Positions 9,187-41,500 of a stretch of DNA of 64,000 nt are shown piece after piece. The translations under genes and the position numbers were made by a program. The stretch is from Aphrocallistes beatrix (Eukaryota > Porifera > Hexactinellida > Sceptrulophora > Aphrocallistidae). The first letter of the stretch is position 1. Each line of letters starts with the position of its first letter. The notes under the pieces are model-generated. The model saw nothing but the letters and a program-made list of their open reading frames with translations. It had not been told where the DNA came from and did not search any database. The stretch spans positions 806,001-870,000 of the forward strand of contig OY725489.1 in assembly GCA_963281255.1 (NCBI GenBank), in the 5' to 3' direction.

Positions 9187-9397
9187 TACGTACTAAAGAT
9201 CTAAGAAAGGGAATTTCTCTTCATTTTTCAAAATACAATTGTCATTTACAGTGTTTTAACTGTAAAAGCTTTCCCAGCGAAACACATATAAATTATTATA
9301 TTAAAATGCTCCCCAATTTTTCTGCAAATCAAAATCCTGATGAATACTCCGTGTGTCAATACAGATATGCTTGCGATATGGAACATATTGTAATATA

Positions 9398-9923
9398 CAG
9401 TGAAACCTCCGATAGTGAACACCTCTGTTTAGTGAACACCTCTGTGTATAGTGAACACCTCTGTTTAGTGAACACCTCTGTGTATAGTGAACACATCTGT
9501 GTATAGTGAACACCTCTGTGTATAGTGAACACCTCTGTGTATAGTGAACACCTCTGTTTAGTGAACACCTCTGTGTATAGTGAACACATCTGTGTATAGT
9601 GAACACCTCTGTGTATAGTGAACACCTCTGTGTATAGTGAACACCTCTGTTTAGTGAACACCTCTGTGTATAGTGAACACATCTGTGTATAGTGAACACC
9701 TCTGTTTAGTGAACACCTCTGTGTTTAGTGAACACCTCTGTTTAGTGAACACCTCTGTTTAGTGAACACCTCTGTGTTTAGTGAACACCTCTGTTTAGTG
9801 AACACCTTATTTCGAACACAACTTATATATATCAATTAAAATGAACCTCTGGCGAATGAACACCTCGATATAGTAGACAAAAACTCGGGTCTCGAAGTGT
9901 TCAATATAGAGAGAGGTTGATTG
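9398..9923. mobile_element. MITE swollen by an internal minisatellite
   Basis: The left end CAGTGAAACCTCCGATAGTG follows TA. The right end GAGAGGTTGATTG is followed by TA. The end motifs are inverted complements, imperfectly. Nearly 400 bp of the interior is a tandem expansion of the subterminal sequence AGTGAACACCTC, listed separately. The open frames across it are by-products of the repeat and not genes. Confidence 0.75.
9412..9807. repeat. 17/19-bp minisatellite inside the MITE
   Basis: About 20 copies of TCTGTTTAGTGAACACC (17 bp) and TCTGTGTATAGTGAACACC (19 bp) alternate in an irregular order. A longer block made of several units repeats about three times, so expansion has occurred at two scales. 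Confidence 0.9.
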
Positions 9924-11762: not shown

Positions 11763-14700
11763 ATGGCCATTTCAGAAGAACTGACTTCAAGGTGAGTAGC
11801 TTGACACATTTATTCTACAGTTTATGAGATTCTATTTATACTTCTCTCACAGTTCCACCTTCTCCTGGGAATGGGCGCCTCGCAATGATAAAGTATACCT
11901 CACAGCGAGAATAACCGAACCAACTGACCCTAAGATCCAAATCGAAGCAGACTCCATCACTTTCAGGTGACATTGATACTGCTTATACATATGTATATTT
12001 GGTATGGTGGAAATAGTTCGCAAAAAAACGAAAATAGTTCACATATAAACCACCATTAATCCTAATGATAAAAAGTCGAACTATTTCCTAAATCTGCGAT
12101 TCGAACTATTTCCTTTTTCGAAAAGTCGAACCATTTCCGCATTACCTGTATATTTGTTTCGTTTCTCTTTTAACAAGTTTGCCCATTCGCAATCTCGAAA
12201 AGATTTAGACTTTTTATTAGGCAAATTCCACCTTTATTCAAACCCAGTTTTAAGAATAAAGTTAAACGTGCAATCCTTGATTAGTGCGACTGACTTAAAT
12301 GGACAACACCACGAGTCCACACTCTACCTATTCGGGGAGATAGTTCCTGAGGACACCATTCAAACGAACATGTCCCGCGGATACGAGATCATAGTGAAGA
12401 GAAAGACAGAGGGAGACTACTGGGTCCGGCTCCTGAAACAGAAACAAAAGGTGTGAACTGTTTATTTTTAACTCAAACGTAGAAACTTAGGTTATTGTTA
12501 TTTCCATTTTAGGCGCATTACGTCAAGACAGATTTCTCGAAATGGAAAGATGAGGATGATGATGAGAATGACTTTGATGTAAGTATGCAAATTCTGTTTA
12601 TTTAGCTTCTCTGCTTTAAATAATCAGTTCTACCTATGTTTCTAGCCCGAAGGAATGGCAGGAATGGGAGGCATGGGAGGAATGCCAGGAATGGGAGGCA
12701 TGGGAGGAATGCCAGGAATGGGAGGTATGGGAGGAATGCCAGGAATGGGAGGTATGGGAGGCATGGGAGGCATGGGAGGCATGGGCGGGATGGGCGGGAT
12801 GCCAGGCATGGATGGAATGGACTTCGGAAACTTAGGGGTAAGCTTCAATACTATTATTCATTATGCACAAATACAAATTCTGAGAAGTAACCAATTAATC
12901 TCTAACTCCGCTCGCGTTAGGATCTGCCAATGGATGATGCTGACGGAGAAGACAGCGATGATGATGGTTTGTTATTTTACATCTTTTATTGCTTAGTTGA
13001 AAGGGCATTCGGGCAGCTGGCAATTGCTCTATAGACTGCCAAAGCCGTTCTGCCAACATTTTCCGTTTAAAATTATTCTTAGTGTGCTTCGTATACTTTT
13101 ATTTATACTGAGAGATCCATACACTCCTTTGTCCCTCCTCAAAAATTGATAAAATTAGCCACAATGCTTAGTTTAGTACACTCCTCGCCAGCCTAAGTTA
13201 ATCCTGAAAAGTATGGACGTAAGGCCTTACCTTGAGATCAGCTGTCGCTTATTCATCAAAGCACTTCCTGTCCAATTCTCTCCAGAAGACACGATCGATT
13301 TCCTCCGCACTTTCGGCGCTATTCACGTTGAGCTGATGTCTCCATTCGGTAAGATGAAGCACACCGCATTCGCTAACTTCATAAATCGAAGTGAGGCAAA
13401 GCGCGCTATGCACAGACTACACCAGCTAGAGGTGTTAGGCGCCAGATTGATTGTGCTCTGGGCTACAGCTAAACTTGAGAAAGAATCAAACAGTTCTGTT
13501 TTCAATTCTTCTCGTGTCACCTCGGAAAATGCCCCTCCTGACATTCCTAGACATTTCCCTATCCCAAACTCCGGAATATTAGCTCAGATTTCTAAATGCT
13601 TGGCAGTTAACAACGAATTCTATACAGAAGTTCTGCACTTAATGGAAAAGATGCAGCTTCCATTTCTGCCCGAGAAGATACACTCCCCTGTACCCGTTGA
13701 GTCGCAGGCTCAGATTCAGAGTGGCGATGAGAGTGATGAGTCGTTGGCCCCTTTAAGGGCCAGATACTCTCCAGTGAGGCATGCCGCACTCTCGATTCCA
13801 GGACTCTTGGCTAAGCACACTGAGTCTATTGCCGTCGAATCTAGCGTATTGACTAAGAGGAGGAGGATTGAATTCAATCTAGCCACTGAGCAGGATTTAC
13901 CAAAGACAACCCCACCTCTCTACTCAACATTTGACACCCCACTCCCAATCGGAACCCTTTCAAAGCATCACGTCTCCCCTGAAAGGATAAAATCGCCCTC
14001 CCCCGTCCCATCACTCCAGTTAGATTCCTACATTTCAGACTTTGAGTTGAGACACGGTAGACTATCAAAATCTGAAATGAGACGGAATGCTCTATTCAAG
14101 TCCTATTCCAGAGGAGACGCCTCATCCCGCCTCTACCTTAAGAACCTAGCTAAGAGCGTGACGGAGCGAGACATCAACTTCATATTCGGACGTTACGTAG
14201 ACTTTAGTCGGGATGAGGATAAGCGCAGTTACTTGATAACTCTAATGCGGGGCGGGAGAATGCGTGGGCAGGCGTTCGTCGGTCTCCCCAGTCCAGAGGT
14301 CGCCCTGAGAGCACTGGAGGACACCAACGGGTGCATCCTACACGGGAAACCAATCGTGGTGACATTCGCACGGTCTGCTATCGCGAAGAAATGAGTCCAT
14401 GTATCCTCTTTTAATTAATTAATTAAATACAGGTCTATTTATAGTACATATATATACCTAGGCTGTTGGTGTCAGGAGTTGAGTCGGAGTCCATAGTGTT
14501 ATGAACATGAGCTTAATTCCTAGCAAATTATCTCTCCGATTCCAAGCGTGAATATGAAAAGAGGTTTTGTGTTGAGTTAGCTAAGTGCTAACTTTCTTTA
14601 TTTAAATCAGGGAAATATCGCTGTTACTATTAGATTTATCTCAAATAATTTTGTCCCATTTTATATTTTTTTCTTTCAACAGTTATCCCCGAATTGGAAA

Positions 14701-20504: not shown

Positions 20505-23500
20505 ATGGCTACATTTTCAGACGGAACAGACGCACCCCTTCACTCACAGAGTAACGAGTTCAGACCCATCCGTGGGAGTAGGCAGTCGAGGAATGATAAT
20601 TTCCGAGATTACAATCAACACAGCACAGGCTATTATGGGTCAAACCAGTATTACGGAGAAACGCACTACCAGCAAGGCTACAACACTCACAATGAGTACG
20701 CATACGTTGATGATACTTGGAGATATGAGAGCGATGTTAGGAGATATGATAACGTGTATTACGAGGGAGGTTATAGAGGAGGAGGAAGCTCCGGGAGAGC
20801 TAAGAGGGGTAGAGGGGGGCGGAGTAAAAGGGGGACTGGTAGAGGAGGGGGAGGGTGGAGAGACCAGAACTTCGCTTCAGAGGTAAGTAATCCCTTCCGG
20901 CCATGGGGAAATGGATATTATTAATTCAATAATCATGTTTTCTCTGTTTATAGAGGGAAGGCGAGTTTTATGAACACACGCAAGAAGCAACCTGGAGTTC
21001 TTACGAGCATGCCAGCCCGAGGAGAGAGAAGGAGAGCAGGGGCAGAAGGCAGGACTATGGACTGGGTGAGGAGTACGGGAAGAGGAAAGAAAATCCATAC
21101 TCAGGTTTATAACTACGAATTTGTTTCAACAACGTTTTGATTCGAGTTTCATTTGAAAATGATCAACGATTGTGGAGTGGAGTCAAGTGCAGTTTTATGA
21201 TACTAAATGAAGCGCTTTACAATTACCTAATGACGTCATTAACTTCTATAGTAGTGTGGTATACAAGTGACTCCGCTTAATCGGGGCATTTTGGTCCCGC
21301 ATATTTTGTCCAGATTAAGCGGAGTTCCCAATTAACCGATTAGATTTAGTATTAGCTTCTATGCAGAATTATCGGTATTGAATGTAGATCAGAAGAGTAA
21401 CCGAGGCAAGACCCACTTCGGACACAACTCTACTCATCGCGGCTACAACAGGGAGTGGCGTGAAGATGTGGCGTGGAGAGGTGTTGAGAAGTTAAAAGGC
21501 GCAACCGCACAAGCAGAAGAGCTCACACAGCAAATCATGCAGCTGACCTACGAGTGTGTGGTACGTAGAGAGTGTATTGTGCAGTTCTTCAGTATGATAA
21601 TGTGTCATTTCTCTTATTCAGGTCTGCTGTGAAATTGTCAAACATGCACAGGGGGTCTGGTCCTGTCAGGAATGTTTCCAGATATTCCATCTCTCCTGCA
21701 TTTCCAAGTGGGCCACAGCTCCCAACTCACTCGCTGACATTGAACACCCAGGTACTTATCTATTCACTCATACGCGTCCCATTTCTCTTTAATATTACCC
21801 ATTTTCTAGAAAAAGGTTGGAAATGCCCTACATGCAGACACTCCCACACAAAGGTGCCTGAGAAATACAAGTGTTTCTGTGGTGAAGTAAGTAAAATTGC
21901 TCGTAACATTTCAGAAAACGACGAGTTGTATATTGTTTTCACAGTTCATTGTGTTAGGGATAGATTCCATACCTCACTTTCAACAGGTCTTGCCATGGAC
22001 AGCAGCCGTTTCTCGCTTTATTTTTCTTCGCTAGAGCTTTGTCCACTGCTCCCTTGGATATCGAGTAAGCGTTGAGTATTTGGCAGTAATGCAGCTTCAG
22101 GAGTCGGGATCGAATCTTGTCGATATCGAATAGATGCGGGTTCCGCTTGTACACCGTCTCCTTGCACTTGGTCAGTCTCTTCTTGTACTGGTCCTGTGCC
22201 TGCGCCACCTTGGTTCTGATGGCCGGGAGGTCGTCTATGGTGAGGTGGGATTTGGTTTGGTTTCGGATGTCAGAGGCGTTGACGAACGGCATTTGTGTGA
22301 GCGGTTTGACGTCAAGACGGGTCGCTCTCTCTCGGCTCAGTTTTCTACTTAGAAATATGAAATAAATCATATTCCCGATCTTGGGTATATACGTATTTAT
22401 ACGTACAGGTGACTCCGCTTAATCGGGACACTTTTGTCCAGGATATTTTGTCCAAAAATAAATTTAGTATTAGCTTCTATGTATGGGAACCATTCCATTC
22501 CTGGAGACTTGTCCTGATTAAGTTAACACGTCTGTATTTGATTCTAATCCTATTTTCGAGAGTTGGAACTTACATTCGATTTGCGAAATCCTTCTGCAGT
22601 TGGTGTCTCAGGTTCCTGCCTTTCTTCTTATGCGAGGTGCTCTTCAGTGAGTTTGGGAATTTCACTTTAAGTCGAATCTTTCCTTTCCCTTTCCCTTTCT
22701 TCTTCCTCTTGCTATCCTCCTCCGGCAGCTTGCAGACGGGCTGCGAGTAAGGAGAGTCCCCCTGTGCACACTTGAATGGGAGACTCGCCAAGTGCGCGGC
22801 CATCTGTTTCTCAGTTAGTCCGATTACGCGCGCTCCAGCCGCATAGTGCGCTACCACGTGAGGCGCCTTCCGAACTTTGTTATGATAATATCTATACGGG
22901 CAGAGGTGTAATGTGGATATAGCGTCTTGTATATTCTTGAAATATGTTTACTTTATGGATATATTGTAAGCAAGAACAAACAAACTATTTGGTATGAACC
23001 TTTGAAAATATTATTATCTGCATCTACACTCGAAAACCTCGAGTGTAGATTTAAATTATATTATAGTTCAAAATTAGTATTGAATTTCATAAAAGAGTCT
23101 AGCAACTCACCGTTCAATTTCGCTGAGAGAAGAGAGAGCCGACTTTCGCATGAATCTTGTCAGTGCGTTGAATAGTATACTCTGATAGCTATTGCGCCTT
23201 TTGTCACCTATTGTGGCTAGAAACTTTTCAGTTGATGTCATCAGATTTAAGAACTCATCGAAATCGATTTCTCCATTCCCATCCTCGTCAATAACACACA
23301 GAACATCTTTCAACTCGGCGATGGTCAGGCAGATATCGACTGAGCGCAGTGCTTGATCCAATTCCGAAGCGTCAATGGTCCCACCTCCGTTTATATCGAA
23401 TAGAGTGAAAACCTCGTTGAAAGCTTCAATCTGATTCTTTGTAAGTCCATACACTTCATCTGGGGCTCCTTTTAGCTCCTCTGTGTTGATGCCAGTCTTA

Positions 23501-26500
23501 GATAACCTAGGCTTGCATTGCGCATCCGGTCTGCCTTTCCCAATTTTTTCACTTCCTGAATCAGGCATTATAGCAGATCTCCTCTGTGTCAGTTGAATGC
23601 TCTCCTTCAAAGTTAGATGACTCTTATCAACCTCAATTTTCTCCATTTCATTTTTATCCGTGTCTGAGTTTGTCGAGCTAGCGGACTCTTTCCGTTTATG
23701 AGCAAACAGAAGACGTTCCTCACTGGTTGTCGTTTCGACTCCCAAATCTGCTAAATTGAACTCCTCTTTCACGTCACCGCATGTTGTCACTATTTTCACT
23801 TTGGGGGCTGACATGACCGTAAGAGAATGAGGGAGGATGTAAGAATGTGTTTGCGTGTTTGTCTCGCTATTTATACCAAACTCCTTACGGCTTAACCAGC
23901 AACCAATCTGATTGGCGGGATATTACATACAGTCAACTCCCGTTAAACAAGTTGGATACAACGACATATCTGGTTACAGTAGAACCTGCGTAATCCAACG
24001 CTAATTATGGTAGGAAACAGGTTCGGTCTCCCAGATTATGGAGGTTCTACTGTACGTATAACGAAATTTTTTTGTCTGGTGTAGTATTATTTTTTATAAA
24101 TCACTTCTTTATATCGGGAGTTGACTGTATATTTAGTTTATTTTCACCATCTGTCTCTGACCATGGTAAAAATTTTTCAGTGGAATTTCTTTTTTCGTTT
24201 AGAATAACTAATTGCTAACTTTTATTACCTTAATAAACCGGAGTGAGATTGTAGCATTTTTTTTGTCGTTTCCACCCCTGCCTATTTTCCCATTTGAGTT
24301 TGCCTTGATGTATAGGTAGAAGATCCAGTTTGGAAGAGAGGGGCACTACCTCACAGCTGCACTGAGATATGTGGGAAGAGCTTGAACACGGATCCTGAGA
24401 GGAGTCTCTGTCAGCACAAGTGCAAGCAACTCTGCCATCCTGGGCCCTGTCCCCCCTGTGCCGCCATGGTTCAAGTGTCCTGTCCCTGCAAAAAATCTAC
24501 GTATCCTCCCTCCATGATATTAATACTATTTAGAACCTAACACAGATAGACCAGTTTCCTATTTAAAATAATAGTTTTAGATTCTTGATCTTGTATGCAA
24601 AAAACTCCGATTCTATTCTGGATTGGACATACAATCTCTTGGTGCATGTATTGACTAACTAAATATAGAATCGTTTGGAAATTGTGAATGAATATTCCTT
24701 GACTTGTTCAAGTATGGAGATGCGTTGTAACATGGCAGTTAATGTAGCGCCTTGTGACGCTTTGTGTGAGAAACTTCTCTCTTGTGGACGTCACTGTTGT
24801 CAACAGCAGTGCCACCATGGTAAGTTCTCACTCACACCATAGTCCTAGGCATAGCTAGCACTTCTCCTTTGGGGTGCAGGCAACCTCATTTGGGGTTTTG
24901 ACAGTGGAAACTATTAATAATTGCGGTTGCTAATAGACACAGCCTTCCAGTGGCAAAGCTCCTGGGAGCTAACAACATTTGTATCATAATTTGCACATAT
25001 TCATCTAATTTTGAGGTTCTAAAAATACAAATTAACTTCGATGACACTCCCTTCCATCATTATTAAATAATTGAGTAAATATATAATGATTTTATCCAGC
25101 CAGGGGGGGGGGGTAACTGGTCCCCCATGACCCCCCCCTCCCTATGCCCTTGCACTGGGGTTGCCAGCCACCCCTAGCTACCCCTATGCCAATGGTACGT
25201 AATACGAAATAATTAGTAACGACTTTATTCGATTTCCACGGCTCAGACAAGGCTGAAACTAGTAGACAGAATCATTTGCTCATAGCTAGCCATCATCATT
25301 GCCTCTCTCATTCAGTTTATTATTAAACGTATGAAGGCGAGAGAATAGCTAAGTTAAGGGTCAGTACAATCTCGTTCTAATGATTTTATTTCTTCAAGGT
25401 GAATGTGAGACCTGTTGCTTCGAGTTATTTCAGAGCTGTTATTGTCACAAATCGAAGAGGAAAGTCATTTGTTGTGATCTAGAGACAGGCGTTTCAGTTG
25501 AAGATGGAGAGAAGATTGAGTTCTCTTGTGGTCAACCCTGCTCGAGGTAAACCCATTATAAGCTAAGATTCTTAAATTCATTATGTAGACTTTTGTATGA
25601 ACAAAATATTTCCTAATGAGTACAAGCTATAAATTCCATTAACTTACACACGTTTTGAAATTCTCCTGATGAAGCATTAACTACACAAATATCCTTTAAG
25701 ATTTGTATCAAAATCACAACGAATATTCTACAATGTCTATAGGTTGATGGGGTTTCGATTAACCTAGTCTATTACCTAACCTAGCCCTATATCAGAATAT
25801 CTGCAGCATACCACACTTCTTATCAGTGCAGACTGACACGATTCTTTTGTCGCTCAGTATCCCGACTCCTTGTGGTGTCATGAACCCTCCTTTGTCCGTA
25901 CCGACCTGTCCTAACGTTTGTAACAGCTCCCCTTGTGCCGTATACACACGCAAGCAATGCGTCACAACATCTGAAATGATGATCAGATTATTCTCTCTGT
26001 TGATGGTGAAAAAGTAGCCCCATTTTGTCATCATCGCTTCTTGCCCTACTCCCTGTATCAAGCTGTGGATTTTCACACCTTGGAGATTGAACAGCTGTAG
26101 ACAAGGGTCGCTTGAATCTAACACGAGCACCATCTGGTCTCTGATTTTGACGTCATCAGGACGTACTACCTGACATTCACATTGATTCTTGATGAAATTT
26201 AACTGGGCGTCCAAAACAGTTATTCTGTCATTGAAGCAGTCACAAACGAATATCTCCCCTTCCTTGCTAACATCAATCCCATGCGGGACATTAAACTGTC
26301 CATTTCCTGTTCCTTTCCCACCCATTTTCTTCACTAACCGCCCGTCACTTACCGTGAACCAGAACACGCCGTGTTGTCCTGCGTCTGTGACATAAGCGTT
26401 GTCCCCAGTTATCGCCACGCTCCAGGGCCCAGTCAAATGTTCATCTCCGAAGTGTTGCATATATTGGCCATCGTTTGAAAATATCTGAATTCGTTTGTTA

Positions 26501-29500
26501 TACTGGTCGCAAATGTAGATGTTGTCTTGGGAGTCAATTGATAGGCCCCTCGGCCCGTTCAATTCTCCAGGGAGATGGCCCTCATTGCATCCACTGATAG
26601 GAATGACTGTATTTTTTTCTTGTTTGATGAAAAGTGTATTATCGATACTAAGCAGATTCGTGAGAACGGTTTCAAATCGAGTCAAGTCGAAGTTCAGTTG
26701 TATCTTTCCTCCTATTTTAGTTTGGTTCTTTTCAAGCTCTCCTCTTGTCAAGTTTGAAGTGAAGATGTGATTTCTGCTCTGTCCTAGCTGTTCTAACTCA
26801 GACCATCCCTTCTCCTCGACATCTTGAGCCTCACTATGGCCTGCTAGCATCTCGCTCAGTATCTTATCCAGATCATGGCTCAGCACTTGTTCGTACTGGT
26901 CTAGCCTGGAGTGAAGGATTCTAAAATTCGCTATCAAGTTGTCTTTCAGTTCTGTGATCCTAGACACAATATCGTTTCCAGCCATTTTACAGTTAATACC
27001 ACTTCGAGATAATATTATTACAAATTACTATATCATTGACACCTTGTCATCACCATTGGATGTTTAATTATGGTCTTGTTAGAATGAGTCAAGGGTAAAT
27101 GACTAAATTAACTTGGGCAAGAGATTTGGATTACCTCATCAACATACATATGTATCTATAAACTCAATGGTTGTGTGTTTATTCGTTTTTGTAATTATCT
27201 GAAATAGGCGGCTGTTGTTATTGGATTAGCATAAGCGCCAGCCGCGCAGCGCAAGCAAGCGAAGCGCGCTTGTATACTTTTAATTAGTCTCTTAACATTA
27301 CCTCATAATTAGTCTTAGACAATTTAACATCAATCTTATTAATCCTGCTAATTCATAGGTTGTCTGATTGGTATTAACATCTAATTTGATACACTTTACT
27401 CTGTCTCAGTTTGGTTGTGGACTGAACCTAGAATATTGCACTTACACCTGTTAATAACCTGCTTTTTATTTTTGTAATGCAGTGGAGTTTCCGGATAACG
27501 GACACATTGGGGACATGGCTTTTGTCCGTTAGAGAGTGTCCACTTCTCGGAGAGTGCTTAACTATTACATACGTATATGGTAAATTCACTCCCTCCCACG
27601 AGGTTTGTCCGTTGTAGATGGGTTGTCCGCTTTTCTGAGTGTCCGTTTTGGGAGACTCCACTGTATTTTATTTCAAGGTAAATAAGTCCAATTTTGTTTC
27701 GTTGTATTCAAACAATTTTGTTGATCAGCACTGACTTTTTGTAAATGCATTTCAGTGTATTGGTTAACTATTCTACACATACATATTTATGAATTTGTAT
27801 ATTTCCAAATCTTGAGAGCAATCGAAAGTACACTAGTCATAGTAACTAGTGCTATGTTATACTGTATAAGTTTCTGTATCAACGACCAAGTTTAATAACC
27901 TTACAAAAGTTATTTAATTATCACACAAAATATTTCACGCATCAACGACTATATAGCATTACGTAAAGTACAAATAATTCTCTCAACTTGCAATAACAGA
28001 TAATACAACACTAAAATGCTGCAACTGCTAACTACTACATACTTGTAGTGTTAATTTGTTTTCCCAGCAAAAGTACTAATTGTTCCCATTGCCTTTTGCT
28101 TTATCTTTCTCGTGCAAGTGTAAAGGGGACCGTTTCCAATCGTCACACATAGTATGATTAGCCACGCCATCCGTACCAGTATCGGATTGAAAGGAATGAT
28201 GCATGGGTAGTCACAGGGCGGAATAAGGTTTCTCAGACGTGGAGGCAACAGATCAGAAACGATTGTGGCATTGGCATGAGCTGGTATGGAGTTGTTGTAT
28301 TGGGCAGGAATAATCGGGCTTCCCAGTGCAATGCAAGCTCCATACGCTCTGTTTTCTAAGTTCCACTTTATGGTGAATCCAGCCCAGGAAGCGTATACTG
28401 TGCGGGCTATGAGCAGAAATATGTAGAACGCACCTACGCCAATGAATCGTTTCTCCAGCGGACTCATCTGTACTCTGGTCGTTTTATACTTCTGCGAGTT
28501 GAGGACTGCCCAGCGAATCTTGTGGAATAGAAGCAAGAAAGTCGTGAGGATGAACCGGTATAGGACGTAAATAGGGGCGGCAATAATATACGCCCCGGAG
28601 CCGAAATTATAACTCGGAGGTTCAATCGCGTTCTCAAGGTTGAACCGTCCTCCAGTAGCGATAAATGCACTCAAGATGAGGAGTGGAACTCCCCAAGCGA
28701 TCAGTGCCTCAACGATTCCCAGTTTCCAGTAGAAAGACTTCGATTGTAGCCTTGGAGATAGCGGGAAGAAGGCAGACAGTGATATGTTGATAAGCGTAAA
28801 CCAAATCCAGAATCCCAACGAATAAAACACATATGCCAACACCCCGCCGTATATGTGTACATGGAGATGGGATTCTCTTCTCACTGCGTCCCATTCCTTG
28901 TCTTCGTTCGAACAAAACAGGTATTTCTGTCCTGGAAAATCAAGAGCAGCGAAAAATAGAGACGGAAGAATGGACATGACAATGCAAATGAAGACAGCAA
29001 ACTGTTTCCAATTGTATTGTTTGTAGTTGATGATCCAGCTAATGATCCCATACACCCCTAGCACGATTCCGATGATGTCTAGCAATATTAAGAAATACCG
29101 CTCAATGTAGTACATCACTGGACCACAGCTCCCCCATTCACCGCACTTGGGTGTACAAGTTCTGGTTCGGGGAGTGTAGATGTACATAGCTGGGCATTGG
29201 ATCGATTGATTGGTTAAGTTAGCGTATGACAGCAATCTCTCAGGGCGAGTGACCAGATTTGCAATCGATATGTTACTTCTCTGTAACTTCACCCGCGCAT
29301 ACCCTTCATAACCCAGTAGGAAACCCAGTGACAGCCATATTATCGCGATGCCAACAACGGTGAATATGCTCAGTGCAACTTTCTGGCATTTGATGGGCAA
29401 GCAGAGTTTGGGTTTTGTCATGTTTTCCATTGTCTCTTTATCAGTTTCAATAATCGAGAAAATGCTAGACTTGCGTCTTGGCAAGCTAGGCCGACACTCA

Positions 29501-32500
29501 TCTGTGACAGAATCCACAGACTCACTCGTTTTGTAAAGTGAGTTTTTTGTGATGTCATTTCTCTCTCTGTTTTGAGCTCCAATGACTCTTGGGTTTGAGT
29601 AGATGCTTGTGTTTTTGTTTTCCATTTGGAACTTTTCTTGATTTTGAATTCTTAAAACCCAATCCTTTATACTCCACATAGCTAACAGAGCACCCTTTCC
29701 TGATATGCTTGATCTGTTTGGTCATTAATAGTGAATTGAATTATGGCTTAGAAAGTAATTAATTTCAGTCAGTGTCAATGTCTGATTGATTCTTGAGTTT
29801 TGAACTTTGACATTTACTACGTTACAGACTCCCACCAATGATGTAAGAATATGGATAGGTTCTTTCAACTTCTTTTAGAAATATATCATATCAAATTATA
29901 TGAAAGCGGTTCCTAATTAGAGATGAATATATTACTTAGGGCATTCAAAAAGTTCTCATCCCAAATCTGTATCTCAAATGATAGTGAAAATAGGATATTT
30001 TCTATTTGTCTATTGTATTCCTTAGGGGATCAGCTTCCAATTTGTATATTGGTTTATTTTACAAGGACAATTGTTGTGGTTCCTACATTATATTTTTGTA
30101 CATCGGTTTAAGGTAGTCCCTTTGAACGTGATTTTTCGGGTTCCCTTTGATATATTTCAGTTCTGAGCAAATTTAACTGATCCCTCCATCGAATTCTACG
30201 CATCAACTAACATATAGATTGACTTCTCTAAAGTATCCTAGTTTTAGGCTGAGGGAATAATGTGTTTTGAAGTGGTTTACTACTATTACTTTTGTCCCAC
30301 TTTTTATGTGGCGAAAATTAGCCAAAAATCCATTAAAAGTGACATGATATTTTTTCAACACGAACAATTCTATTGAACACCTCCCGTTTACTCTTTCACA
30401 TTGGTTCTTAATTATTTAACCTTTTAATGATCTTATTTTACGATTTTCACAAATTTTTTCTCCTTAACTTTTCGACACTACTCTAAACCGATGTACAAAA
30501 ATCTAATGTAGGAACCACAATAATTGTCCTCTTAATATAACCCAATATATAAATTGGGAGCTGATCCCCTAAGGAATACAATGGACAAATCGGAAATATC
30601 CTATTTTCACTATCATTTGAGATACAGATATGAGATGAGAACTTTTTGAATGCCCTAAGTACTACTATACATACAGCACACACCATGCTCTCCTTTAAAT
30701 ATATTATTAACTCATCAATATTCACATTTGTCTCTTAGCCCAAATAGTTTATGCAGGAGAGAGAGAACAGTCATCACCATTTATTTAGAAGTGGTCTGCA
30801 GTAGAGGGGTCTTTGTCCGTAATTAAAGTAATCCGTTATGATTTGAACAAACTGTTTGTTAAAAGTCTCTGGATGGAATATCAATTGCATTCATGTTTGT
30901 TTGTTTTTTCAATGATAAAGATTGCATTTCTCCTCTACTAAATGAAGAATATTTAACAGAGGAGAAATGAAATACAACTACATAGTATGATAAGCAGAAG
31001 CAACTAAGTATGGCAACTTAATGTGCCTGGAGCCAGATAGACTAGAATGCATTCTGATTTGCTGTGTCAGCTTCTTTGGAAAAAGAGCATTAGTTTAGGT
31101 AGCCTCCTGCTCAGATCCTATGAGCAACGCTCCATGCATGCCAAGATTGCATCCATTTCTAATGACATTGCTGCAATAGAATCAACCATCCTTACTATTA
31201 CATAGATCTGTGTATTTTTGAAATTAATATCTTCTAGAATCTTCTAATTTTAGATCAAGGTGCGAGTATAATTATGGAACAGTAGAAAAAGTAGCATTTG
31301 ATGCTGTCTTTCTTGTCTAACTTCAAGTATATACTATGCCCACCACAGACTTGAAGTTTAGACAAGAAAGGCGGTATCAAATGCTACTTTCCTACTGTGC
31401 TATATATTTTTACTTGGGCTTTGATTTAAAATTCAGAATAATTACTGCTAATAATTTAGTTTTGTGTCATGGATATCCTCGATAGACACACTACTAATGT
31501 AATAAAAGTTTGTAGTATTTAGTAGAAAGCTTCTAAAATTGGTCATTGGAATGTGGACACTAACAATTGCCATGCAGACAAACTTGTTCATATAAGGTTG
31601 ATACCTATATTAATAAATTGTCCATCTGTTTCGATGGAAATGCATTTGAAGCAGTTTGCGGGCTTTTTTACTACTAGAAAATCTACTTCTAGTAGAAATG
31701 GTCACTACTTATCTACAACTCTACCTTGTTATCTTGATGAATGCTGGCAGTAGTTGAGTAGAAAATTTTGAAGAATTATCATAACGATTATGTATAAATG
31801 AAAAATGGAAGACCTAAGAGTGTTTATAATTGTTAACAGCAGCTCCTAATTTGCATTGAATATCAATCACCATCATACCATGAGTGATAATATCCTCAAG
31901 ACTTGCATTGTTAAAGGACACCCTAGACAAAATAGTAAATTTGTTGAGGATCATTATAGGAAGCCTCGAGGGCTACTTGAAGGAATGCGCAGGGTTGATT
32001 CTACAAGCAAAAGGGAAACAAATTTTACGATTGAAAATCAACATAAGTGGAATGAATTAAAGAATCGCTTTCTGGATCAGGTATTTTCTTTTAAAGAAGT
32101 TAATTCTACAAATGTAACAGTCACTATCGATTTTGATTTATTGAAGACTCAAAGTTTTGAAAATCGACGGGAATTTTTTACTTTGTGTAAGCAATCATTT
32201 AAAGTTCAAGATTATACACGCATTAGAGTTGAATGGAAGCGATACAGCGCGAGAGATTTTAAAAGTAAGAAGAAAAGTAGAAGTGTTAGTGCTTCGCTCA
32301 CTCAGAGCCATTTTACAACTCAGCACCTCTTCGTGGGACCTGCGCATCCACCTATATCCGGTCCCGATACTTCTATCCCTGACGGATATCGAGATCAGAT
32401 TCACGGACCGATTGCGAATGGTCCTCTTCAGCCCCCAAACACTTTCTGTCCTAGCACTTATAGTGGTGGGGGACAAGGATCTCAATACTCTCAAATGACT

Positions 32501-35500
32501 CCAGATTATTCTCATGCGTACCCACCTAGAATCAATCCCACTACTTCTATTCATGGCGGACATCAAGGTCAGATTCATGGGCCGAATATGGATTATCCAT
32601 CCCAATTTACCAGTCCCACGAATCATAGTTTTAGGAGACAGGGGAATGAGGTCTTCCCCAATGCCATGATGTCGGAACATCAGCCACCTATGTACCAGCA
32701 GAATATCAGTTCCAGTGTTTATAATTTTGGGCAGTTTGGTAATGATCGTTGGTAAGATCCACAACTGATGTCATAAGGTTATTTTCTAGCAAACTATGCT
32801 TATAAGGAACATTTTGTCAGTAATTTAGATTTAGCATAATTTATACCTTTAGAAAATATCATGTGTTATGTATTTCTCTGCAACACTCTTTGTGTATAGA
32901 AGTATGATGCTATCTAGATATAGCTGATCCTGTTGTCAACTAGTTTATTAGCTAGTATGTATCCCTTGCATTTACTCTTTGGTGTACATATTTACTCTTC
33001 ATTAAACAAACATATCTATTATTAATACTTAAAAATGCATGGAATAATCATCTCTCTGTTGCGACACTTAGTTACTATCATTGAATATTACCTTAGGATA
33101 TCTGTTTGTCTAAATTTTACTGTTTCAAATCTAAAAGAAAGTTCTTTATAATATTATGCAACAAAACATTATGTAACAATATACTCGTGTATCTTATATA
33201 TTAAAACTCTAGGATTTTGTTTGTTTGTTTGTTTGTTTGTTTGTCTGAATTGATTGAAGAATTGGCAAGTCGTAGAGATACGAAAATTGGCATGTAGGTT
33301 TCAAATGATGAATCTAGGATTAAGTTCGAAGATCTAAGCAAAATGTTCACACCTCGCCGAGATAGGTGACAAAATGTCCTGACCAATCAAATTCGATTAT
33401 TTTATAATGCAAATACATTGGAATAAAATCGTAGTGACTTATGCATCTTATATATTAAAACTCCAGGATTTTTTTGTTTTGTTTTTTTGTTTGTTTGTCC
33501 GAATTGATTGAAGAATTGGTAAGTCGTAGAGATACGAAAATTGGCATGTAGGTGTCAAATGATGAATCTACGATTAAGTTCTAAGATCTAAGCGAAATTT
33601 TCACACCTCTGCAAAAAAAATGGAAAACAATTTTTCGCACCTTTTCTATACAAAATAAATGACTACACTATTACAATAGAAATCATTGTACAAGTACGAC
33701 ACTACAATAAATAGATCGTCATTGTTATTAATACTTCAAAGCCACAACTTATGTTTGATATCTTAAATGTATTATAGTGTATGGCTATAAAAAAGATTAT
33801 CTGCATATTTTCACACCTTTATATACATATTTTCACACCTTTTGATGAATTTTGAAAATAATGCTAGAGACTAGCTTCCAACGGTTGACATGCGGTTTTC
33901 AGGGGTGTAGATTTCGAATATCATATTTTCAGATCGATATGATAAAATATTTGTTTACTTTTGTTTACAATATATACATAAAGTAAACAAATCTCAAAAA
34001 TATGCTAGAAACTTGATTTCAACAGTTGACATGGGGTTTTTAGGGGTGTAGATTTCGAATATCATATTTTCAGATCGATATGATAAATTATTTGTTTACT
34101 TTTGTTTACAATAGATACATAAAGTAAACAAATTACAAAAATAGGCTGGAAACTAGCTTCCAACGGTTGACATGGGGTTTTTAGGGGTGTAGATTTCGAA
34201 TATTATATTTTCAGATCCATATGAGAAATTATTCGTTGACCTTTGTTTACAATATTTATATTAAGAAATATAATTCCCAAAATATGTTAGATTAGGTAAC
34301 TCCAGGCGCCCGCAGGGCGACTCTGCGGACACGCAGTGTCCGCAAGCCGCGCAGCGCAAGCAAGCGAAGCGTGCTTGTACAATCAAAAGAACTATTTTTG
34401 ATTGAAATTCATTGGTTTATGTGAACCAATCAATTATCAGCCTTTTATAATGCCATTCACACGATTCTATTTCATATAAATGATTGAATACTGCTATTTT
34501 GAGTCTATAATTTGATTGTTAACAACAATTAAAGTGTGTTATATGCTACGATCAATCAATTCGATCATAAAATAACTTTTAACGACATGGACTGGAATTG
34601 ATTATTTAAGTACAATAATCTTAAGCAATGTGAACTTTGTGTATTCAAATTGAGCTTACATTCAGGATTAGTTGACTTAAGTAAATTATATTTATCACGA
34701 AACATAATTTCTGCTACAATTCTGATTTCATTAATGTCAGTGCATAGACAAATGACAATTCAGCGTACTTAGTATAAAACAAGAATGCGACGTATTGTTT
34801 CTCTAATATCCGCAAGCGCTCACTGGGTAAATCTGCAGACACGCAGTGTCTGCAAGCCGCGCAGCGCAAGCAAGCGAAGCGCTTGTCACCATAAAGTAGT
34901 GAGTGTAATGTTCTATTTTAGAGAAAGAGTTGCTAATTAAAGACGTTAAAGACGCGTGATATTTTTGAATTATGCAAACTAAGTCGTTAATAATGAAACA
35001 TGAATGATATGATACAAAATATTTCAACAAATATAATTGACCAGAATACAAATAAATTCAGGATAAATTGTCTACATAATAGTACATAGAATTCCTGGCA
35101 CAAGAATAAGTGGGCCAAATTATAATAATAATTATAGAATCAATGAATGATGTTGACCCGGAATTCCCGAACATTCAAGAGATTCATTTCATTTGTTCTG
35201 GAATTTTTGTTGCAGCAAAGCTGTGTTTAACAGAAATTCCAGAACCTCTTGAATATCTAGGGAATTCCTGACGGTTGGTTCGTAGGCATTATTTATGCTT
35301 GTTTATAATATAAAAATGAACATAAGTTTATAATTGTTAACAGCAGCTCCAAATTTGCACTGAATATCAATCACCATCATACCATGAGTGAAAATATCCT
35401 CAAGACTTGCTTTGTTAAAGGACACCCTAGAAAAAATATGAATTTTGTTGAGGATCATTATAGAAAGCCTCGAGGGCTACTTGAAGGAATGCGCAGGGTT

Positions 35501-38500
35501 GATTCTACGAGCAAAAGGGAAGAAAATTTTACGATTGAAAATCAACATAAGTGGAATGAATTAAAGCTTCGCTTTCTGGATCAGGTATTTTCTTTTAAAG
35601 AAATTAATTCTACAAATGTAACAATCACTATCGATTTTGATTTATTGAAGACTCAAAGTTTTGAAAATCGACGGGAATTTTTTACTTTGTGTAAGCAAAC
35701 ATTTAAAGTTCAAAATTATACACGCATTAGAGTTGAATGGAAGCGATACAGCGCGAGAGATTTTAAAAGTAAGAAGAAAAGTAGAACTGTTGGTACTTCG
35801 CTCAGTCAGAGCCATTTTACAACTCAACGCCGCATCGAAGGACCTGCGCATCCATCTAATTCCGGTCCTATTACCTCCAGTCATGAAGAACAAGGGGATC
35901 AGATTCTCAACCCGATCGTGGATCGTCCACTTTTGTTCCCTTTGAATCTCCTTTATATCCATGAAGGCAGCGAGGTCAGGTCCACCTGTATGATCCCTCT
36001 ATATATAATCATGAGGAATGAGGTAGGACAAACCCAACTGATGCCAGAGTATTCCATGTTTCCAACTAACTAAATGGTCCAAAGAAATATTTTATCAAAG
36101 ATAAATTTGGTGCATATTTTTTGTGATATATTATTTTTAGTTATTCTTTGTTAAAAATACGTATCAATTAAATTTATATTGATAAAGAAACTGCCAGTCA
36201 TAGAACTGAGGGCATGAGTGACTAGAGCAAGTTCAAGTCTCAGGCGAGAATGTCAACTCATCACATAATGTATGACGCTATCATATCCTTTCTTTATGTG
36301 GACACGAAGTATTGTACATTTTAAAATGACGCCATAATATCATAAGAAATAATAACAGCAAAATTTAATGAAAAAAACTAATACTTATGTCACTAAGAGT
36401 ACTACTTTGAGAAAACGAACACTTGACTCGATTCGATTATTTGGTGCTTTCAAAAATTCGGTTATACGTGTATTCTTATTTTTTCCTATATTTTCTTATT
36501 TCTGAATGTCTTGAGCAATATTGAACGCCAGACCTTGAGAGAAGGGTTAGTCGTAATGCTGAATACAATGATCCAAGTAAGCCGAATGAGGATAGTCCTA
36601 AACGGAATTATGCAAGCGTGTGTGCACTCAGATATTTGATCTTGCAGCTCTGTATCCAGTAAATCGGCTACCAAGGAGCTGTTAGGAGGTGTGATAGTTG
36701 AGCTCGGCGAGAGTAGAGAAAACAAGCTCTTTAGCGTAATGCAGGCAGCGTACTCTCGATTCTGAGCTTCCCATTGAGGGCTGAAACCGATATATGTGCT
36801 GTACACCCCACGCAACAACATTACGGACATGTAGCATATGGACACGACTATGAAACGTCTCTCCGGGCCACTCATTTGGAGCGGGGCAGCCGAGCAAGTT
36901 TGAAGGTGCAACCTTTCCATCTGAGTTTTGTACAGAATCACTAGAATAGTCGTAACGCAAGCTGCAAGAATGAAAATAATGAAATGGATGGAAAAAAAAT
37001 TGCCTCGATTATTTCCTATACTCGGATATTGGATTACAATCTCCAAATTATACCTCTCACCAATTCCGAATTACCCTCCAATTAAGAGTATTGGGATTCC
37101 GAACCCGAATAAGAACTCGAATGCAAATTCTTTCCACAGAAATGACTTTGATTGGAGTCGAGCTGATAATGGAAAATATTGGAGGAAAGCGATGTTAAGG
37201 AGAGCGAAGAATAACCACAGGACAAAAGAGGTTGAAACATAGTGTAGTATTACGCCGAAAATTTGTACCTGGATATTATCTGCCACTTTCACTTCCTCCA
37301 ATGCCACTTCTTCCCCTAAACAGTATAAATATCTCTGTCCGGGTAGATCTAATGCTAGGAATATCGGAGAAAGCAAAACTCCCAAATGAGCCGTGATAAT
37401 GATTCCAAACTGTTTCAGTTGCCATTCTTTAAAGACTACAATCTGACTGATAATCCCAAAAGCCCCAAATAGGAGCCCACAACAATCGATAATGATTAGT
37501 GCATACCTCTCTACGCAATACATAATGGCGCCACAGCCACTCCAGAAACCACATTTTGGCCTACACGAATTAGCAGCAGGTAAGAAGATATACATTTCGG
37601 GGCATTCAACTGATTTTTGTGAAAAATTAACAGTTCTAAGTAATTTTTCCGACAATGAGAGATTACTATTGACTTGAATAGAATAATTATTTGCTATTTC
37701 TTTATATAATCCGTGCACGATTGGAGGTATCAGGATCAGCCAAACGAATACGATGGCTATTGGTAGGGCTATTCTCAGAGTAACAAGCTGGCAAGAGATA
37801 GGGAGAAAAGGTTTATACTTTACGAAGGCTTTTATCGGTGCTTGATCATTGAGGATCGGTAAGATGCTCGATTTCCGACGATACTCCATTCTATGTGTAT
37901 ATTCTTCAGATGGAAGGAAATTGTTGCTCTGTTTCCTTTCTGAATATTTGGAATAATATTCGATTTTTTTATCCTTTTTATTTTCTGTCTTTGCAATTTC
38001 TTCCATTTTTGAACTTTCTTACTGTATTAGTGTGTAAACAATGGAAATTCCATTCAAATACCATTGAGAAGCGTGGTTACGTTTTATACTCAACGAGTCC
38101 AGTTACTGATGTATATTTATTTATTCTTTACAATCGAGGACACATGTCTACTGGTGGTTGTTAAATATTTAGTAAATAGTTCAATTTCATAAAATTAATA
38201 ACCATCAAGACATCTATTCTCAATATTAATTTCGATGGCGTTTTAAAATTCGAATAATTTCTGAATCTTCATTGCTGAAACCGCAGCTTTTGTTATCTGA
38301 TCCCAAAATGGTTGTCCTGCGACAGACGATGTTTTGATTGCTACATCACATTATTGACTGATTCAACATTTCAAAAGTACCTTCAGAATCTGCAGTTGTA
38401 GACTTAGAGAATGACCGTGTATTTTAATATTTAATTAACCTTTAAATGGTGCTAGATTTTTGCTAACCGGTTAAGTCATTTTGGGCGGGGAAACCTTAGA

Positions 38501-41500
38501 AGTGTGGGGTCTTTGCTATAAATAGAAATGACCCCAGGTAATTTAAGGGATAACATTAATTGTCTGTCTCTCTCTGTGAATCAGATTTCCCAATAATAGA
38601 TTCTGAAATTCTAGAGAAATTCTCGGACAAAATAATTAACATGTGGTTTATGACTATATTATTTAAAGATTTAATTACGCACTTGATCAAGCAAGAATAT
38701 ACTTTGATTGCTGTCACAAATAATCTCTTATATCGAAACACACTTAACTATCCTAACTCACGACTAAAGTTTACATACCCAAGAGATACATAAACATACA
38801 ACTCAAACTATTGACAACAATCAATCTTTGCTGTTTAATGCTATGTTCACACGGCACTTCGCATCTTGAAATACCCTTTGAGCGTTTTGAAGAGACCACC
38901 AGGGTTAAATTGAGGAATCAACACCACGAAAACCGACACCCATATTAGCCGTAGTGAAATTGTTGACATGATGAACAGGAACGATGGGTAAATATCTTCG
39001 TTTTGTTGTAGGTAATTCTGACACGGTAGTATATCTCCCTCATCGTAATACTCAGAGAATAAGTTTATTAGTTCTAAGCTCTTTCCTCTGTGCACCTCTC
39101 CATCAATCACGTACGTGATGTTACAGTCCAGTGTTACGCATCCAATAATCTCCTCCAAATTCCAATAATAACTGTAGGTGACAAACCGATATGCAATGAC
39201 GGTCGTGTTTATCAATACGTTTAATATTATAAGAATGATTGAGTGGATCATGAAACGCGTTTCAAATCCGCCGATTTTCTGCGTTCGCCCTGATAAATCC
39301 TCTTGCCGTAGCAAGTACAGTTTGAGTTTCAGCACGATCACTACATTGAATACCAGGATGATGCTTAGACAGGCGAAGTGCGGCCATTCGTAGAGGACGT
39401 TATAGAGGTTGTGATCTCTGATGATGAGGATTCGATATATCTGGAGTGGCCCGTAGGCTGTAGTGTATTCTCCGTTATAGTCTGGTGCATTGGTAGCGAG
39501 GATGAGAGCAATAAATGGGGTCAGTAGGGAGATAGAAAACTCAAATATGAATATGTATCTTTTTGTTTTGAGATTAGAACATATTTGTAGAGGGAAGAGC
39601 AGAACTAGGATTATATTCAGCCAAGAGAATATAGTCCAAAGCAAATAAGTCAGAGTAAAGTAGTGGAATAAAGCACCGTAGAATTCAATAAGTCCGTTGT
39701 TATGAGGGGAGACTAGAGAGAAATCTATTCCCAATTCAGAAGTGGTTGTATGGCAGAATATTTCCTTTTGATCTGGCACGTCTAGCATTGTATAGAGAAG
39801 GATCAGAATTGACACACTCAAAAGTAACATGAATAAACTCAACCTGGGGAGATTTAGATCCAGGTCTTCGAGTGAAGTTGGTCTCTCCTTGATAAGATGG
39901 AGGATAAATGGCAATACCCACGCACATATACTCACAATACTGAGTAGAATGCCGGATAGATCTATTATGTTTAGTATCGCTTTCTGTGCTGTGAACGCAG
40001 CTGGGCCGGCTGGATGCCAATTGCAGGGAGGCAGGCAGAAGTAACCGTTGAATTCAAACCCCAAACTACAGTTAGCCTCCAGTAACTCCGCTTGTTTGTA
40101 GTATCTGATCAGTGCGAGCTCAGTTGCCTTCTCCCAAAGGGAATTATTCTGATTCGGGATTCCCTTTGGGGGTACTTTTGATAGAACGAGGGGTGTGAGC
40201 GCCAAGATAACTGCCAGCGCTATGACAAGTATAGATAGTATCTTCCAAGACAGTTTGATGCACCTTGGAGAACATTTTCTGCTCTTTCTGTTACTATTAC
40301 TATTTCGTGGTCTCATGTTGGTACCTTGTTTCTCTAGAAGCCTTTTCATCGAAAACATTCCTTTATCAACGCGGTTATTGCCGTTGTTACTGCCGCGTCC
40401 TTCATCGGTGTTTTGTACCACTTGAGTGTTGACGAATGTGCTGCATTTCTCGCCGATCTCTTTCATTACAATCGTACTCATTATCTCAATTTATCGAGAC
40501 TAGTTTTTTGTTGAGTTTACCTATCAAGTCTTTTTATATTGCTGTTATACTGAGTGCAGCTTTTGTTGAATGTATTGGAATGAAGTTGCTCATAATAATC
40601 AATGCTACAATACTAATTGATTTGAATATGATTTTTTATTCTATTTTTGTAGGCAAATTTCATGTGGTAACCATCTTTGTGAGAGAGCATGTCATTATGG
40701 TGATTGCGGAGGGTGTAATTTGGCGCCTGAAGTCATCACCACCTGTCCATGTGGCGCCTACCCGATAGAGAAGTTGATGTCTGAAGGAGAGGAGAGGACA
40801 TCTTGTCTGGACCCTATTCCTGTCTGCCATTCTACCTGCAATAAAGTTCTCCTCTGCTCCAAACTCGGTAATGTATTGTATTTACCAGAAATAGGATATT
40901 GTTAAGTTCTTATGTCAAAGCTCAAGTGAAAGTAAAAGTAAATTAGCGAGGGCGAAATCTCATGGAACGTTCTTAGTGCCCTTACCCCCAAGGACTTAAG
41001 TTAAAACTCCATTCATTTCAAAAATACTTTTGTCACAATTTTAGCCTTTTAAGAAGTGTTTAAAAGAATAAATTGAAATGATAAGTTACATTTTAAACCT
41101 CAATTTCAAAAAACGTTTTTCCTAAACGAGCTTAAGCCTTTCAGACTTGGCAGGTATAACACGTATCATGTTATCACGTAGATGATCCCAAATCTCATCG
41201 TTGCGAGTTAAAATGCCACACTGAAGATTGTAACATTTGCGAAAAGCAACAGCTGGTGCAGTGTCGATGTACGAAATCGCGACTTTTTGTGCCTTGCAAA
41301 GATCTCAAAGTTGGGACACCTGATCAGCTGCCGAAGTGTGACAAGCTTTGTAACAAGAAGATGGAATGTGGGAAACACAGGTGTCAGAATAAATGCTGCA
41401 TCAACTCATCCCATCAATGTATCGTCATTTGTAACAAGAGATTGCACTGCGGACATAAATGCATGGAGGTATGCCACACTCACAGATGCCCACCTTGTCC

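Follow-up and report, generated by a model that had tools for sequence, protein, structure and literature searches.

A probable U12-type intron in the NFX1 gene of Aphrocallistes beatrix and a plausible co-adaptation of its donor with an altered U6atac

Our analysis suggests that intron 6 of the NFX1 gene of Aphrocallistes beatrix (24501–24712, + strand, 212 nt, phase 2, GT–AG termini, C at -1) is very probably a true intron of the U12 type, spliced out by the minor spliceosome. As a lone U12-type intron it is ordinary; its donor, GTATCCTCCC (24501–24510, + strand), opens with the RTATCCT-type core GTATCCT at +1 to +7 and continues with CCC at +8 to +10, so that +8/+9 are CC where the consensus has TT. 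The U6atac encoded in the same genome carries GG at the nucleotides facing these two positions, and the sequences make a co-adaptation of U12-type donors and U6atac in this species plausible. Positions are those of the window, the whole 64-kb stretch of DNA analysed, which corresponds to C2:806001-870000 of the genome scanned (100.5 Mb, 28 contigs).

The host gene (20505–43657, + strand) was modelled with 14 exons, open throughout and encoding 975 amino acids, with an R3H domain near the C-terminus. In Pfam, the protein matches the R3H domain (E 2.7e-13) and, marginally, the NF-X1 zinc finger (22.4 bits against a cut-off of 22.7); from these matches, together with its similarity to the human protein, we take the gene to be NFX1. 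Exon 6 (24316–24500, + strand) encodes a cysteine-rich NF-X1 region and ends in CPCKKST with its last codon split, and exon 7 (24713–24819, + strand) reads MEMRCNMAVNVAPCDALCEKLLSCGRHCCQQQCHH. The borders are TAC|GTATCCTCCC at 24501 and TTGTTCAAG|TAT at 24712, and joining 24500 to 24713 keeps the frame open as CPCKKST|MEMRC, presumably retaining the C-x-C-x8-C spacing of human NFX1. The acceptor at 24712 is thus fixed by the reading frame, as a preliminary description of this DNA had proposed. That description also called the donor close to the U12 consensus, a wording that reflects the CC, rather than TT, at +8/+9, the only two bases at which it departs.

The branch motif TTCCTTGAC (24695–24703, + strand) matches TTCCTTRAC exactly. 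It had been placed ten bases before the acceptor; the motif is indeed present near the acceptor, but nine nucleotides follow it, so the stated distance was off by one. Counted from the branch A (24702), the last base of the intron is 10 nt away, which is short, one below the 11–13 nt given as the optimum in the excerpted text of PMC3584512. The 3' end (TGTGAATGAATATTCCTTGACTTGTTCAAG) has no polypyrimidine tract. Both phase 2 and a base other than G at -1 are typical of U12-type GT–AG introns (PMC7367187, in excerpt). Neither an RTATCC donor nor TTCCTTRAC in the last 40 nt occurs in the other 12 NFX1 introns, whose donors (GTAAGT three times, and GTAAGC, GTAAAC, GTAATG, GTAATT, GTACGT, GTACTT, GTCAGT, GTTTAT and GTATTT) are all U2-like, in agreement with the preliminary description. 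Among the matches listed for open-licence literature, none was found to report a U12-type or minor intron in NFX1. Opposite-strand open frames lie within two long introns of the gene, intron 5 (21887–24315, 2.4 kb) and intron 8 (25547–40652, 15 kb). The former holds an EF-hand-like protein (23107–23922, by eye), the latter an NHL-repeat protein (25858–26985) and membrane-protein-like frames at 28054–29721, 37074–38018 and 38850–40490, these last with no Pfam match.

How readily could such signals arise by chance? Of 20,000 dinucleotide-preserving shuffles of the intron body, 7 placed an exact TTCCTTRAC in the right zone, and 10 of the 6,953 GTs on both strands of the 64-kb window begin GTATCCT; the product of the two rates gives a joint chance of about 5e-7 per intron. 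A scan of the window for RTATCCT paired with TTCCTTRAC (no more than one branch-motif mismatch, AG in place, 50–1000 nt) returned a single pair, NFX1 intron 6. Genome-wide, motif pairs are no commoner than their reversed-pattern controls, with 14 matches against 15 for RTATCCT...TTCCTTRAC at 51–111 nt, scored without coding evidence, and six against eight for RTATCCTYY...branch pattern at 165–225 nt; a count of 19 pairs against 14 controls in 262,045 bases comes from a sample partly chosen for such pairs. Motifs alone are therefore no proof, and evidence from the reading frame is needed.

Inspection by eye showed no real intron behind any of the 14 paired donors of the 51–111 nt pattern; one of these loci (L014) does hold a real U12-type intron, with a different donor. 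Of the six RTATCCTYY matches, four were rejected as U12-type introns: L050, an open frame, LINE-like by eye, whose endonuclease/exonuclease match is marginal (24.2 bits, cut-off 24.5); L052, where a single open frame of 515 residues, ADCK-like by eye and with no Pfam match for its first 100 residues, contains the motif; and L054 and L055, where coding flanks are absent by eye. Chance donor matches at L005, L009 and L015 share a stretch that ends in GGCGGTATCCTT, perhaps a repeat resembling U12 donors. The window itself has coding-like repeats at 1–1860 and 9304–9724 (FWLTLCALGGYLP..., CSLYTEVFTIHRGVHYTQ...) with the look of tandem arrays.

The search for minor-spliceosome snRNAs that the preliminary description had called for found three of them above their Rfam cut-offs, each at one place among the candidates scored: U11 (92.4 bits, cut-off 39), U12 (65 bits, cut-off 53) and U6atac (67 bits, cut-off 33). 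The U4atac candidate, at 40.3 bits, falls under its cut-off of 53. It is nevertheless credible, because its GUCCUUAUCGAGGG is the exact complement of the species' own U6atac over 14 bases (candidate at L003 1501–1621, U6atac at L002 1501–1603). Their helix departs from the consensus on both strands, and its computed energy is -29.9 kcal/mol, compared with -23.5 when U4atac is replaced by its consensus and -30.8 when both partners are. The own U12 contains GUAAGGAA, complementary to the branch motif TTCCTTGAC. Upstream of the U6atac gene, at about 30 nt, is a TATA-like stretch, and T7 stands at its end; no upstream word longer than 8 nt is common to the four snRNA genes. A mir-232 match in L001 (32.1 bits against a cut-off of 67) was taken as a chance hairpin.

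A protein component of the minor spliceosome is encoded in the window as well, as had been noted beforehand. The RNPC3 product (P0001), from a single open frame at 13213–14394 (+ strand), has a match (E 3e-35) to the solved chains 3egn/5obn of RNA-binding protein 40, which we take to be human U11/U12-65K. By eye, this frame appears to sit inside an intron of another + strand gene. An autoregulatory element of RNPC3, the USSE, is made of tandem U12-type donor sites (PMC5473595, in excerpt). Tandem U11-binding sites of the USSE kind are absent from the 406 nt past the RNPC3 stop, where there is one TATCCT (14402) and the only other TATCC is a TATCCC at 14684. The lone GTATCCTCTTTT site at 14401, 6 nt past the stop, is single, unlike the USSE tandem.

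A second U12-type intron came to light at L014, in a RAB5 gene of seven exons whose product matches Rab-5A in the PDB (E 1e-94). Its third intron (L014 reverse complement 1412–1607, G000 C11 near 200039; 196 nt, phase 1) reads ATATCCTCCC ... TTCCTTAAC TGGTGGCAA|GG. When the possible ends were tried, AT–AA kept the frame and AT–AG gave a shifted, broken protein. Read from the frame, the AA 3' terminus is of a rare type: the excerpted text of PMC8280824 names AT–AC, AT–AA, AT–AG and AT–AT minor introns, and the RAB5 intron resembles this AT–AN class in its AT start and a 3' end other than AG, with the difference that AT–AA is deduced here from the reading frame only. The donor ends in ATCCTCCC, the same as that of NFX1 intron 6, and the spacing from branch site to intron end is also the same. 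L014 had been retrieved with a pattern that placed no constraint on +8/+9.

The U6atac of A. beatrix reads GUGUUGUAAGGGAGGAGAGA, compared with GUGUUGUaUGAAAGGAGAGA in the Rfam consensus, so that the donor-recognition stretch is GGGAGGA rather than GAAAGGA, with GG in place of AA at nucleotides 11–12. The register of pairing is set by suppressor experiments, in which donor CC5/6 pairs with U6atac GG14/15 (PMC4980772, in excerpt); in this register, donor positions +8 and +9 face U6atac nucleotides 12 and 11, both G here. With CC placed opposite this GG, the NFX1 donor should be able to make seven Watson–Crick pairs, from +4 to +10, with nucleotides 16 to 10 of its own U6atac. Predicted duplex energies are -15.3 kcal/mol with the own U6atac versus -7.0 with the consensus for the NFX1 donor, -14.5 versus -6.4 for the RAB5 donor, and -6.8 versus -8.4 for a TTT donor. 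The 5' end of U11 is unchanged (AAAAAGGGC), and its predicted pairing is slightly weaker with the NFX1 (-5.3) and RAB5 (-4.5) donors than with the TTT donor (-6.1).

Following the established mechanism, U11 and U12 would recognise the donor and branch site of NFX1 intron 6, bridged by the U11/U12-65K protein, and U6atac would then take the place of U11 at the donor. Since GGGAGGA in U6atac meets CCC at +8 to +10 of the donor, the resulting helix would hold G–C pairs where the consensus helix has A–U, and would be strengthened by them.

CCC occupies +8 to +10 in each of the U12-type introns found (n = 2). In the RTATCCTYY search at 165–225 nt, coding evidence identifies two of the six matches as real introns; these two carry CC, which is seen in none of the four rejected matches; by counting arrangements, this split has a chance of 1 in 15, the sorting into real and rejected being our own. 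CC at +8/+9 is expected by chance at 1 in 25 given the window composition, or 1 in 16 with equal bases. Because the hypothesis arose from NFX1, RAB5 is the sole independent test of the match to U6atac. On balance, we lean towards a scenario in which U6atac A11–A12 became G11–G12, followed (or preceded) by a T-to-C change at +8/+9 in the surviving U12-type donors, turning the helix from A–U to G–C with U11 unchanged, and giving an intron-depleted lineage its own donor consensus, RTATCCTCCC. Such a joint change with U6atac would be eased if few U12-type donors remained. Co-adaptation is plausible and, with only two such introns found, unproven. A donor/U6atac change of this kind is not described in the U6atac and co-evolution literature, as judged by title or abstract start of the open-licence papers among the matches listed.

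The same introns could instead be genuinely U12-type while the CC of the donors and the GG of U6atac reflect unrelated drift, TT donors still being served through G–U pairs, a possibility that we take seriously while thinking it the wrong side of even. Drift is compatible with just two known introns and with a TTT donor that still pairs with the own U6atac at -6.8 kcal/mol, and the CC of NFX1, having been noticed before U6atac, provides no independent test. It sits less easily with the RAB5 donor, which also has CCC although it was retrieved by a search free at +8/+9, with the presence of CC in two of two real donors against none of four rejected ones, and with a computed gain of about 8 kcal/mol in both NFX1 and RAB5.

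More doubtful, and in our judgement improbable, is a regulated switch, in which the use of AG 24668 or retention of the intron would yield an NFX1 message with an early stop in some conditions. Minor splicing is slow, and AG 24668 is preceded by a good U2-like branch sequence, TTGACTAAC; a join to this AG would give the junction codon, five further codons (IVWKL) and then a stop, as expected from the earlier remark that the nearer AG is out of frame. Such a switch would require the donor to work with a U2 acceptor, to which it is ill suited. Least credible of all is the view that the intron is of the U2 type, with a weak donor, and carries U12-like motifs by chance; the GT–AG termini and the same U2-like branch sequence ahead of AG 24668 would allow it, but against it stand a donor without +5G and -1G, the broken frame at AG 24668, the absence of a pyrimidine tract before 24712 and the joint motif chance of about 5e-7.

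In search of further U12-type introns, we considered gene families known for minor introns elsewhere. In human, such introns are abundant in the GPN, MAPK, PLC, E2F and voltage-gated Na/Ca channel families (PMC6865273, in excerpt), and Na/H antiporters have minor-intron positions common to animals and plants (PMC2426677, in excerpt). In A. beatrix, three of the four matches to GPN-loop GTPases are strong, with the domain covered in one frame each, and no U12-type intron was found in GPN, these three being each one frame. Three of ten PLC matches span the whole X domain in frames of 1099–1273 residues, the others being pieces of intron-bearing genes. The NHE family gave nine matches. In each of six, a single frame spans 330 or more of the 375 profile positions; the remaining three are neighbours on C18 and look like fragments of one intron-bearing gene. 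Among 116 kinase matches, the 15 best each have 284 or more of the 360 query residues within a single frame. A single frame of 2203 residues also encodes a four-repeat ion channel (C1:6833441–6839308); further example loci of single-frame genes are L028–L030 and L034–L036. The genome thus looks intron-depleted in the families sampled. A partial look at the intron-bearing E2F, NHE, PLC and kinase genes, by motif scan and with some donors read by eye, found no U12-type intron; for PLC, NHE and E2F it covered the introns of some members, with intron ends resolved in part, and for the kinases, including a JNK-like gene, it consisted of the motif scan only. This suggests that minor introns may be scarce in A. 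beatrix, with the snRNAs and RNPC3 nonetheless kept.

In the families sampled, introns seem to have been lost where human relatives are rich in minor introns, while the minor spliceosome is kept, and A. beatrix may help to test what sustains this machinery when its targets are few. Should the paired change in U6atac and donors prove true across the genome, it would be a natural compensatory-mutation experiment, the same step having been shown with engineered RNAs in the suppressor work (PMC4980772, in excerpt); it would also mean that the minor donor consensus can be shaped by pairing with U6atac, and not only by pairing with U11.

With the GT–AG U12-type introns of animals and plants, NFX1 intron 6 shares the RTATCCT core, TTCCTTRAC near the acceptor, phase 2 and a base other than G at -1, and the minor snRNAs and U11/U12-65K that accompany such introns are also present in A. 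beatrix. It differs from the usual U12-type intron in having CCC, rather than a T-rich stretch, at +8 to +10, complementary to the altered U6atac. In Physarum polycephalum, Larue et al. reportedly found in 2021 an expansion of minor introns with loose motifs. This transformed minor-intron system (cited in PMC10228655, in excerpt) likewise belongs to a lineage with departing minor-intron signals, whereas in A. beatrix the signals remain strict, with a shift in a single U6atac:donor stretch.
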